In this document: positions 30,944 to 36,334 of the stretch, piece after piece
Position numbering within the stretch: the first letter of the stretch is position 1
How the letters are laid out: each line of letters starts with the position of its first letter
Source: an uncultured Collinsella sp.
GTDB lineage: Bacteria; Actinomycetota; Coriobacteriia; Coriobacteriales; Coriobacteriaceae
Direction: 5' to 3'
DNA length: 45,576 nucleotides
Assembly (NCBI GenBank): GCA_949285915.1
Contig: CASDZW010000014.1
Coordinates: 1 to 45,576, forward strand
Notes under the pieces: generated by a model
Told to the model about the DNA's origin: nothing
Databases searched by the model: none
What the model saw: only the letters and a program-made list of their open reading frames with translations
Program-made: the position numbers and the translations under genes

Positions 30944-32371
30944 TTACGCTAGGTCCTCGCCGTTAGTGGCAATGACCTTCTTATACCAGTCGAAGCTCTT
31001 CTTCTTGGAGCGCGCAAGGGTGCCGTTACCGGCGTCGTCGCGATCGACGTAGATGAAGCCGTAGCGCTTGGACATCTCGCCCGTGGAGGCGGAGACGAGG
31101 TCGATCGGGCCCCAAGTGGTGTAGCCGAGCATCTCGACGCCGTCCTCGGTGATGGCATCGCGCATAGCCTCGATGTGCTGACGCAGGTAATCGATGCGGT
31201 AATCGTCATCGATCGTGCCATCGGCGTTGAGCTCGTCCTTCGCGCCAAGGCCGTTCTCAACCACAAAGAGGGGCTTCTGGTAGCGGTCCCACAGGTCGTT
31301 GATGGTGATGCGGAAACCGAGCGGGTCGATGGCCCAGCCCCACTCGCTCACCTTGAGGTAGGGGTTCTTGGCACCCTTGAAGGCGTTGCCCTCGGTCTGC
31401 TCGGCATCGCTTCCCTCACCCGCGACGCAACGCGTGGAGTAGTAGGAGAACGAGATAAAGTCGACGGTGTTCTCGGCAAGCGCCTGACGGTCCTCGTCGG
31501 TCATACCGATGTCGATGCCCTTGCGCTCGAGCTGCTTGAGCGCGTAGGCCGGATAGTAGCCGCGGCTCTGGACGTCCACGAAGAAGTAGTTCTCCTGGTT
31601 GGCGAGCTGCGCGGCGCGCACGTCCTCGGGGTTGCAGCTGTAGGGGTAGTAGGTACCGGCGGCGAGCATGCAACCGACCTTCATCTCGGGGTCGATCTCG
31701 TGCGCGATCTTGGTCGCCCAGGCGCTCGCCACGAGCTCGTTGTGCGCGGCGAGGTACTCGACGGCCTCGCGGTCCTCGCCCTCCTCAAAGACCAGGCCCG
31801 CGCCCATGAACGGCAGGTGCAAGATCATGTTGATCTCGTTGAAGGTGAGCCAGTACTTAACGAGCCCCTTGTAGCGCGTGAAGAGAACCGTCACGAGCTT
31901 CTTATAGAGGTCGATGAGCTTGCGGTTGCGCCAGCCACCGTACTCCTTGATGAGGTGGATGGGGCAATCGAAGTGCGTGATGGTGACGAGCGGCTCGATG
32001 CCGTGTTTCTGGCACTCGCGGAACAGGTCCTCGTAGAAGGCGAGGCCCTCTTCGTTGGGCTCGTCCTCGTCGCCGTTGGGGAAGATGCGCGTCCAGCCGA
32101 TGGAGAGACGATAGGTCTTGAAACCCATCTCCGCAAAGAGCGCGATGTCCTCCTTGTAGTGGTGGTACATGTCGATACCGACCTGAGCGGGATAGTAGTA
32201 GCCGTCCTCGAAGTCGAGCATCTTGCGCAGGCCCGCCATCACGGGACCGCGGTCTGCGCCGTGCGGGATCACGTCAACGTTGGCAAGGCCGCGCCCGCCC
32301 TCGTTGTAGCCGCCCTCGCACTGGTTGGCAGCGGTCGCGCCGCCCCACAGGAACCCTTCGGGAAATGCCAT
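30944..32371 (-). CDS. GH1 6-phospho-beta-glucosidase
   Basis: Glycoside hydrolase family 1 enzyme of 475 residues that splits phosphorylated beta-glucosides brought in by a PTS. The acid/base glutamate is E179 (TFNEIN) and the nucleophile E372 (VVENGLG). The [13 protein letters not shown] segment (about residues 427-439) has the serine, lysine and tyrosine that bind the 6-phosphate, which separates this group from plain beta-glucosidases. I chose the ATG at 32369-32371 because AGAAGGAGG precedes it. It is downstream of the sulfatase and PTS EIIC genes on the same strand but behind a strong terminator (32478-32516), so it likely has its own promoter in 32372-32477, where an inverted GTCCGG/CCGGAC repeat lies. 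Confidence 0.92.
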
Positions 32372-32477
32372 GGTGCCTCCTTCTGTCATCTGGTCGTCTT
32401 GTCCGGAGTGCTTACCCGGACTTATTTATTTTCCCATGGCGCTCTTGGAGAGCCAAGGATACGCCGCCGGAATCGCT

Positions 32478-32516
32478 CAAAAAAGCGGCGGGCGGCCGCC
32501 TCATCGACCGCCCGCC
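32478..32516 (-). terminator. Rho-independent terminator after the second sulfatase gene
   Basis: A perfect 9-base-pair GC stem (32487-32495 with 32508-32516) is followed on the minus strand by GCTTTTTT. It is 25 bases past the sulfatase stop and should end the PTS-sulfatase transcript before the glucosidase gene. Confidence 0.85.
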
Positions 32517-32540
32517 CCCCTGAGAGGTCTATAGAAGCGT

Positions 32541-35433: not shown

Positions 35434-35518
35434 TGGAGATATTTCCATTACAGCTGAACTATTTTCCGTTGAACGGATACTTTTCCACCGTAAACGGTAT
35501 TTTTTGGAGATATTTCCA
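35434..35518. promoter_or_regulatory. Operator region of the PTS-sulfatase operon (two 14-bp palindromes and a tandem dyad)
   Basis: TGGAGATATTTCCA occurs twice, at 35434-35447 and 35505-35518, 71 bases apart, about seven helical turns, which would suit a looped complex. Between them, on the minus strand, two similar dyads stand in tandem: ACCGTTTACGGT and TCCGTTCAACGGA (35471-35496). A related 14-mer is found before the rpiR-like gene itself. The promoter should lie here, but I cannot fix its hexamers. Confidence 0.65.
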
Positions 35519-36298
35519 CTATGGTAGGAACCTCGACACATGCAACAACACAAGCTCGATGAACATCATGGTCACAATCTGATCCTCAAAGAAGTTCATA
35601 GAGTTGTCGTGGCTGACCCACGGCAGGTAGTAGCACGACGACGCCTTCTCCCCTAGCGCCAGGTTCTTGTTCATCGTAATCAGGTGTACGTCCACCCCGC
35701 GCGAGCGCATCGTCTCCATCAACGCACCGTAACCGGGGTTGCCCCGCCCCGAAAGAGTAAGGACAATGCACACGTCACCTGAGCCTAAAATCTCTGCATC
35801 ATCGGTCATGACAATGGCATCGTCAGTCCACTTGTTGTAAATACCAAGGCGCGTGAGGCGGTGCGAGAGCTGAAGCGCACTCTCAGCAGTGCGATTAACG
35901 CCCCAGATGCTGAGCCGCTTTGCCTTCACGATGGCTTGCGCAAGACATTCCACCTGCTCGTCGGTGACGTAACGCGGGATACTGCGGATGTAATCCATGT
36001 AAACGGAAGCGAGCTGCACCACATCCGCCTCGATTCCGCTGCCCGTGGAGGTGTCCTCAGCCCCCTCATGCGCGATACGCGCGCGATTCATAGAGAAACG
36101 GAACTCAGAGAACCCGTTGAACCCGAGTTTCTGGCTCAAGCGAATGAGGGCGGAGTTGGAGGTTCCGGTGAGCTCGGCTACCTTCGTTATGCTGCCATTC
36201 AGCACAACGGCAGGATCGGCCAGGATAGCCTCGGCCGCGCGGCGCTCCGTCTTGGTGAGCGTCGGCAATGCCTGACGCATATCCTCTATCAGACCCAT
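35519..36298 (-). CDS. RpiR-family transcriptional regulator
   Basis: A 259-residue regulator: an N-terminal HTH_6 domain (about residues 1-75; KVAELTGTSNSALIRLSQKLGF as recognition region) and a C-terminal SIS sugar-phosphate-binding domain (about residues 105-235; SIWGVNRTAESALQ and LTLSGRGNPGYG). RpiR proteins sense phosphosugars. It is transcribed just ahead of the PTS EIIC gene on the same strand, and the same palindrome is found before both. It therefore likely controls uptake and desulfation of the PTS substrate and its own synthesis. I chose the ATG at 36296-36298 because AGGGGGAA lies four bases upstream; the frame reaches 36397 without a site. Confidence 0.87.
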   Translation of the reverse strand: MGLIEDMRQALPTLTKTERRAAEAILADPAVVLNGSITKVAELTGTSNSALIRLSQKLGFNGFSEFRFSMNRARIAHEGAEDTSTGSGIEADVVQLASVYMDYIRSIPRYVTDEQVECLAQAIVKAKRLSIWGVNRTAESALQLSHRLTRLGIYNKWTDDAIVMTDDAEILGSGDVCIVLTLSGRGNPGYGALMETMRSRGVDVHLITMNKNLALGEKASSCYYLPWVSHDNSMNFFEDQIVTMMFIELVLLHVSRFLP

Positions 36299-36320
36299 GG
36301 TTCCCCCTGACATTAGAATT

Positions 36321-36334
36321 TGGAAATATATCCA
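36321..36334. promoter_or_regulatory. Third RpiR-type palindrome, before the regulator gene
   Basis: TGGAAATATATCCA lies 23 bases upstream of the rpiR-like start. It differs from the two sites in the PTS promoter by two substitutions and keeps the TGGA/TCCA ends. It suggests autoregulation. Confidence 0.6.

Follow-up and report, generated by a model that had tools for sequence, protein, structure and literature searches.

A PTS-linked clade of S1-type sulfatases and an rpiR-EIIC-sulfatase module in Collinsella

Introduction

What might a sulfatase do in the company of a sugar phosphotransferase system (PTS)? The question is raised by a locus in 45,576 nucleotides of DNA from an uncultured Collinsella sp. 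(NCBI GenBank assembly GCA_949285915.1, contig CASDZW010000014.1, positions 1 to 45,576 of the forward strand; this whole stretch is called the window below), in which genes for an RpiR-family regulator, a PTS EIIC protein, an S1-type sulfatase and a 6-phospho-beta-glucosidase of family GH1 follow one another. A preliminary description of the sequence had read all four genes as one route, in which a sulfated beta-disaccharide is taken up, phosphorylated, desulfated and cleaved, and had regarded this route as new for the lineage. Here we describe a sulfatase clade tied to PTS genes, an operator-like array shared with relatives, and a three-gene unit of rpiR, EIIC and sulfatase from which the GH1 gene stands apart.

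Results

The sulfatase belongs to a clade linked to PTS genes

At least 530 relatives of the sulfatase were confirmed in a scan of a species collection, and the best 80 of these were taken for comparison. They were grouped first by identity and then by a tree, which moved one sequence (L134) into the clade; that clade, with the window included, comprises 32 rows (Shimodaira-Hasegawa approximate likelihood-ratio test, SH-aLRT, 100), and the rest form a sister group. A second tree, which drew in further order-level members and omitted L134, L100, L032 and two thirds of the sister group, gives the same split (100/100). We searched for partner genes with tblastn, using a small reference set, within 6 kb of each sulfatase, at 31 clade loci (L086-L115 and L134; the window locus was not counted, and L086 is apparently the locus of G007, another genome of the genus) and at 49 sister loci. 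The flanks are short at a number of loci (L087, L097, L100, L105, L108, L109 and L111), so that partner counts are lower bounds.

At least one PTS subunit is encoded nearby at 30 of the 31 clade loci versus one of the 49 sister loci, and an EIIC or BglF-type EII at 28 versus one; at 25 clade loci the EII gene directly adjoins the sulfatase gene on the same strand. Two loci are exceptions to the PTS rule: no PTS gene lies within 6 kb at L091, and L104 has PTS genes on the opposite strand only. A regulator of the RpiR or LicT type accompanies the sulfatase at 21/31 clade loci (1/49 in the sister group), anSME, the anaerobic sulfatase maturase, at 14/31 (0/49), and a TauE exporter at 11/31 (0/49). 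Named carriers include Fusibacter, Amphibacillus, Listeria costaricensis, Enterococcus gallinarum, Lactococcus plantarum, Lacrimispora amygdalina, Dielma fastidiosa and Eggerthia catenaformis. A Lachnoclostridium locus (L089) contains anSME, RpiR, EIIC, sulfatase, EIIA, EIIB, TauE and GH1, followed by the gene for PTS enzyme I; upstream of this cluster (3367-6138) lie open reading frames (ORFs) that resemble, by eye, relatives of nitrogenase components.

The tie between sulfatase and PTS that the preliminary description drew from one locus is borne out by this sample. The gene neighbourhood is conserved among relatives in its PTS partner, with maturase and TauE recurring, whereas the GH1 partner is found in a minority of clade loci (8/31, versus 0/49 sister loci).

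The rpiR-EIIC-sulfatase unit and its operator array

In the window, all four genes lie on the minus strand in the order described earlier, namely rpiR, EIIC, sulfatase, terminator and GH1, with a gap of 7 bases between EIIC and sulfatase (Table 1). The arrangement is more than chance, since it recurs in other lineages. The regulator most likely starts at the ATG at 36298, longer starts being possible; in a search run on the protein from 36304, its SIS domain scored 22.9 bits, below the cut-off of 25. EIIC scores below the cut-offs of the cellobiose, lactose and chitobiose equivalogs, and aligns with the solved protein 3qnq (E 9.5e-61), H246 and E330 standing opposite the GIHG histidine and the glutamate of the latter.

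Operator-like sites of the form TGGA-N6-TCCA precede both rpiR and EIIC. Those before EIIC form an array of four, with spacings of 31/19/21 (window) and 31/18/22 (L086 and L177, the latter from G235, a genome of the same family). The stricter pattern TGGANATATNTCCA has three exact matches in the source genome (82% complete), of which two precede EIIC and one precedes rpiR; elsewhere in that genome there is one match with one mismatch, versus two for a reversed control pattern. At the module of G007 there are three matches, one exact and two with a single mismatch; elsewhere in that genome there are two more, each with a single mismatch, versus three for the control. When up to three mismatches are allowed, the window holds seven matches versus 1.9 expected, six of the seven being both strands of the same three sites. 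Across 31 stretches scanned with at most one mismatch (L086-L115 and L177), at least two sites are present in eight, one in seven and none in 16.

No operator-like site was found before the GH1 gene, with up to two mismatches in the window or up to one in L086, L088, L089, L101 and L106, nor, with up to one mismatch, before the TauE and anSME genes of the window. Since GH1, TauE and anSME lack such a site, the unit under RpiR in the source genome would consist of rpiR and EIIC-sulfatase, with RpiR as its probable repressor. The terminator that had been placed between sulfatase and GH1 is present as a stem followed by TTTTTT. Terminator-like sites on both strands of 30500-36500 amount to five, versus 4.4 in shuffles, so that their number is not above chance and this stem alone, the longest of them, stands out.

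Table 1. Features of the locus and of its candidate partners, with positions in the window
Feature	Positions	Strand	Evidence
rpiR, RpiR-family regulator	35519..36298	-	HTH_6 60.4 bits, cut-off 28.3
EIIC, PTS lactose/cellobiose family	34048..35355	-	TIGR00410 279.6 bits, cut-off 236
Sulfatase, S1-type, CVPSR motif	32541..34040	-	PF00884 139.9 bits, cut-off 25
Intrinsic-terminator-like stem, 3' of sulfatase	32487..32516	-	12 pairs, 11 G-C, T run
GH1 6-phospho-beta-glucosidase	30944..32371	-	NF007158 888.2 bits, cut-off 639
anSME, anaerobic sulfatase maturase	21035..22132	+	TIGR03942 best NCBIfam match; Radical_SAM and SPASM (Pfam)
TauE/SafE-family exporter	23583..24419	-	PF01925 102.2 bits, cut-off 32.6
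Operator-like site TGGA-N6-TCCA before rpiR	36321..36334		exact match to TGGANATATNTCCA
Operator-like site 1 before EIIC	35505..35518		exact match to TGGANATATNTCCA
Operator-like site 2 before EIIC	35474..35487		1 mismatch
Operator-like site 3 before EIIC	35455..35468		2 mismatches; position fits spacing in L086 and L177
Operator-like site 4 before EIIC	35434..35447		exact match to TGGANATATNTCCA

The maturase and TauE genes lie in the same window, away from the three genes of the unit. With TIGR03942, anSME scores 338.2 bits, slightly below the curated cut-off of 349.45, and it is the probable activator of the EIIC-linked sulfatase; TauE is a candidate for the export of sulfate or sulfite. 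A first sulfatase gene (19110-20906) shares a region (16445-22132) with this maturase, a GPH symporter and a LacI-like regulator. In G235, the homologue of that sulfatase (L177, 13578-15041) adjoins a BglF-type PTS and LicT instead, so that transporters have been swapped at the first sulfatase too. Elsewhere in the window, ORFs 531-1139 and 41193-42221 resemble AbiEi-type proteins, presumably of toxin-antitoxin systems.

The GH1 gene stands apart from the unit

The Ser, Lys and Tyr set that binds phosphate in 6-phospho-beta-glucosidases had been reported as intact in the GH1 protein, and it is indeed present (S429, K435 and Y437); solved homologues also back this identity. The gene most likely starts at the ATG at 32371, 169 bases from the sulfatase gene (the ORF list begins at 32389). 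Its proposed wiring into the unit does not hold here: it is 97-99% identical in four congeners (G002, G003, G005 and G006) that all lack a close sulfatase or EIIC, a terminator lies between it and the sulfatase gene, and no RpiR-type operator precedes it. On these grounds we reject co-regulation of GH1 with the unit in the source genome.

A GH1 at 89% identity or more is found in seven of the nine genomes of the genus (the source genome, G002, G003, G005, G006, G007 and G008), with 81% in G001 and none in G004. Among the eight other genus genomes, G007 alone has rpiR, EIIC, sulfatase and GH1 in the same order. The order in G002, G003 and G006 is valS, a hypothetical gene, GH1 and fhs, and in G005 valS, GH1 and fhs; the three-gene module occupies the gap before GH1, and in the window fhs (named by eye) comes next after GH1 in minus-strand order. 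G008 has its GH1 between folC and folE. The module stands at the same place in the source genome and G007, though the GH1 is closer to that of G002 and G003 (99%) than to that of G007 (93%); an old module with losses seems the likelier history, and recombination the less likely one. The hypothetical gene between module and valS in the window (36363-37763) has a weak Bestrophin-like match (33.5 bits, cut-off 32), and is 44% identical in G007 versus 67-93% for its neighbours.

Across the clade, GH1 lies inside the sulfatase's own gene string in five of 30 loci examined (L088, L089, L093, L101 and L115) and nearby in L106, and it occurs alongside both lactose-type and BglF-type PTS. Within 3 kb it is found at 7/31 clade loci versus about 1.1 expected from the GH1 density of the source genome, a rough yardstick because EIIC genes of the lactose/cellobiose family are often accompanied by a GH1 gene anyway. 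We regard GH1 as a plausible but unspecific, optional last step.

Distribution of the module in the family and order

A close EIIC (E ≤ 1e-120) occurs in three of 65 genomes of the family, namely the source genome (G000), G007 and G235, and a full-length close sulfatase in the same three. In G235 the genes form a compact set, in the order valS, folC, TauE, anSME, rpiR, EIIC, sulfatase, EIIA and EIIB, so that TauE stands beside the maturase and rpiR; LicT, the BglF-type PTS and the homologue of the first sulfatase follow. Of 395 genomes of the order, 14 have the sulfatase at E ≤ 1e-60, and four of these belong to the family (G000, G007, G235 and G026). The relative in G026 (L034, about 9171-11990; 52%) has an internal stop and adjoins ORFs that resemble, by eye, a mannose-type PTS and RpiR. 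G025 (L083, 8730-9816) has a 76-residue piece of EIIC (71% identity) beside TauE, with folC, valS and a maturase nearby; this piece is likely a relic of the module. Ten order-level loci were fetched apart from the tally of 31 and 49 (two of them, L182 and L185, apparently equal L107 and L105), and six of the ten have a PTS subunit.

Features of the predicted sulfatase

The formylglycine motif, Cys-x-Pro-x-Arg, is present as CVPSR at C54, and CVPSR or CTPSR is found in 79 of 81 aligned rows; the exceptions are L134 (VVAGR) and one row with STPSR. L134 (9995-11440), a clade member, thus has no formylglycine cysteine, residues aligned to D304 and K317 are changed as well, and it is probably not an active sulfatase. 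No signal peptide was seen by eye in the window protein, which begins directly in the fold, and the N-termini of its relatives look alike, barring a few with uncertain starts.

We predict an S1-type sulfatase that hydrolyses sulfate esters. Scores against NCBIfam models all fall below the curated cut-offs: 161.8 bits for arylsulfatase PRK13759 (cut-off 481), 149.2 for choline-sulfatase (433.45) and 141.8 for PehA (900). The Lys-x-His pair that forms part of the S1 active site is absent in the alignment, where R102-N103-D104 stands in its place; the sister clade mostly has Lys-Asn-Asp there. The structure model has a mean predicted local distance difference test score (pLDDT) of 94.0. Among solved structures, Foldseek matches it best to phosphonate monoester hydrolases and to choline and carbohydrate sulfatases (about 19-24% identity), and because these matches span phosphonate hydrolases and several sulfatase types, the fold leaves the substrate unnamed.

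The proposed route and its alternatives

We propose that rpiR, EIIC and sulfatase may act as a single regulated unit that handles a sulfated beta-glycoside. In this reading, RpiR would control its own gene and EIIC-sulfatase through the operator array, presumably in response to a sugar phosphate. EIIC, together with EIIA and EIIB from other loci, would import the substrate and phosphorylate its sugar, presumably at O6 as in the family; the sulfatase, matured by anSME, would strip the sulfate from the phosphorylated compound in the cytoplasm; TauE would export the released sulfate; and a 6-phospho-beta-glucosidase, perhaps the neighbouring GH1, would then split the glycoside. We infer the substrate and the order of steps from gene content, a beta-glycoside being favoured because GH1 recurs with both PTS types and because a clade member linked to no PTS (L179) has a symporter and a GH3 enzyme. 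Desulfation of the phosphorylated compound appears the likeliest mechanism, and for the route as a whole we put the probability at about one half.

Several observations weigh against this route, the first being that no EIIA or EIIB gene is among the ORFs listed between rpiR and GH1 in the window. Such genes are present elsewhere in the source genome, and those nearest to the EIIA and EIIB of G235 have 52% and 38% identity in this 82% complete assembly. Moreover, the GH1 gene of the window is likely its own transcription unit, independent of rpiR-EIIC-sulfatase, and at 23/31 clade loci there is no GH1 within 6 kb. Both points suit a reading in which the PTS imports a sulfated monosaccharide or amino sugar and the sulfatase yields an ordinary sugar phosphate, with no glycosidase involved and GH1 a mere neighbour. 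Most sulfatase gene strings do hold only PTS, sulfatase, maturase or TauE, and YdjC/ChbG genes within 6 kb at 3/31 clade loci (0/49 sister loci), a further point against the beta-glycoside route, suggest amino sugars at those three. However, the glycosidase in the sulfatase's own gene string is a GH1 in five loci, GH1 enzymes are unlinked yet plentiful (nine matches in the source genome), and characterised members of both PTS types seen here, lactose-type and BglF-type, carry beta-glycosides. The monosaccharide reading is doubtful, though it retains appreciable weight.

The remaining points against the route come from loci without a PTS. No PTS gene is present in the fetched stretches of four of the ten order-level loci (L179, L180, L181 and L184); L180, L181 and L184 have a maturase there, and in L179 (5503-15642) the place of the PTS is taken by a GPH symporter, a LacI-like gene, a GH3 enzyme and two additional sulfatases. 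L179 falls inside the clade at the end of a long branch, without a firm placement of its exact sister, and it served as the contrast in a comparison of clade-specific residues. The clade rows have 136 conserved columns, of which 16 are clade-specific. Eleven of these, including E96, R102, K112 and H408, are retained in L179, which makes most clade-specific residues independent of the PTS and, in that light, unlikely readers of the phosphate. These loci would be expected if cleavage or uptake came first and the sulfatase acted on a released aglycone or another unphosphorylated compound, the PTS neighbourhood reflecting shared induction only. Direct adjacency to PTS genes at 25/31 clade loci, together with the scarcity of PTS genes near the sulfatase in the sister clade (1/49), argues against such an order of events, which we consider unlikely.

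L179 differs from the clade at M16, V55, H76, N85 and F201. As candidates for residues that read the phosphate, the polar positions shrink to H76 and N85, and since these come from a single long-branch sequence, we make no claim for them; H76 also varies in L184 and is found in 6/50 sister rows.

That the protein is no sulfatase but a member of the same superfamily acting on phosphonates or phosphodiesters is very improbable: a phosphonate monoester hydrolase is the top Foldseek row (with choline and carbohydrate sulfatases at similar E-values), the NCBIfam scores for arylsulfatase, choline-sulfatase and PehA are far below their cut-offs, and Arg-Asn-Asp (102-104) occupies the Lys-x-His position, but anSME, TauE or both lie within 6 kb at 17/31 clade loci versus 0/49 sister loci.

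Desulfation of a PTS product is thus the reading we prefer for the Collinsella locus. A broader and more tentative extension would have a branch of S1 sulfatases in Bacillota and Actinomycetota specialised on such products, desulfating 6-phosphate glycosides with a regulator, operator array, maturase and exporter of its own, and possibly with glucosinolates, the sulfated beta-thioglucosides of plants, as one natural substrate class.

Discussion

The company of PTS and sulfatase is already known, from an island of Streptococcus pneumoniae and an operon of Proteus vulgaris. The pneumococcal accessory island (SPH1922-SPH1930) encodes a lactose-type PTS, a sulfatase, a sulfatase modifier, a TauE exporter and a ROK regulator (PMC3283741, PMC3302838), which leaves less novelty than the preliminary description claimed. 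Island mutants are attenuated in mice, and for the sulfatase mutant no biochemical phenotype was assignable (PMC3283741); the joint action of PTS and sulfatase was left undecided in the same sources (PMC3283741, PMC3302838). The likeness lies in lactose-type EIIC, EIIA, EIIB, sulfatase, modifier and TauE being together there (PMC3302838, PMC3283741). The island differs in its ROK-type regulator, two EIIC genes and ComA-family gene, whereas here we find RpiR, one EIIC, and a dispersed maturase and TauE; the accessible parts of the two papers name no GH1, and the island is likened by gene content rather than by sulfatase sequence (PMC3302838, PMC3283741). The chondroitin operon of P. vulgaris contains putative sulfatase and putative PTS transporter genes, together with a lyase and an unsaturated glucuronyl hydrolase, neither of which is in the cluster described here (PMC9067506).

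Bacteroides desulfate sulfated glycans in the periplasm, according to the part of the source available (PMC9067506). Their glycan sulfatases (e.g. BT1918, S1_46) share the S1 fold, and 7oz8 is among the best Foldseek rows at 21% identity. The protein described here differs in that no signal peptide was seen, in its PTS linkage and in having Arg-Asn-Asp instead of Lys-x-His. The periplasmic enzymes are one point of comparison, and PTS-borne glucosides are another. Sinigrin, for example, carries a sulfate group. In Companilactobacillus farciminis it is handled by a PTS and a 6-phospho-beta-glucosidase (PMC8660893), and such systems for cellobiose, aryl-beta-glucosides and sinigrin resemble the present locus in combining an EII with a GH1 (PMC8660893). 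The accessible portion of the C. farciminis study names no sulfatase in the sinigrin system, whereas here the sulfatase is constant and the GH1 optional (PMC8660893).

With the library and search terms used, we found no paper that deals with this sulfatase clade or describes how a glycoside phosphorylated by a PTS is desulfated; passages of PMC11333855 do not bear on the matter either. The present work adds a defined PTS-linked sulfatase clade in two phyla, an operator array common to the window and relatives, and a local history for the module. The conservation of PTS, sulfatase, maturase and exporter as one unit suggests a cytoplasmic desulfation route in Gram-positive gut bacteria, the key chemistry of which, on a compound both phosphorylated and sulfated, is directly assayable. 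If the broader extension holds, desulfation of glucosinolates would be a bacterial step in a pathway where, in the consulted part of a review, the role of sulfatases is called unclear (PMC6767122). A cytoplasmic route would also provide a context for the pneumococcal island, the components of which, according to the text available, matter for fitness in mice (PMC3283741).

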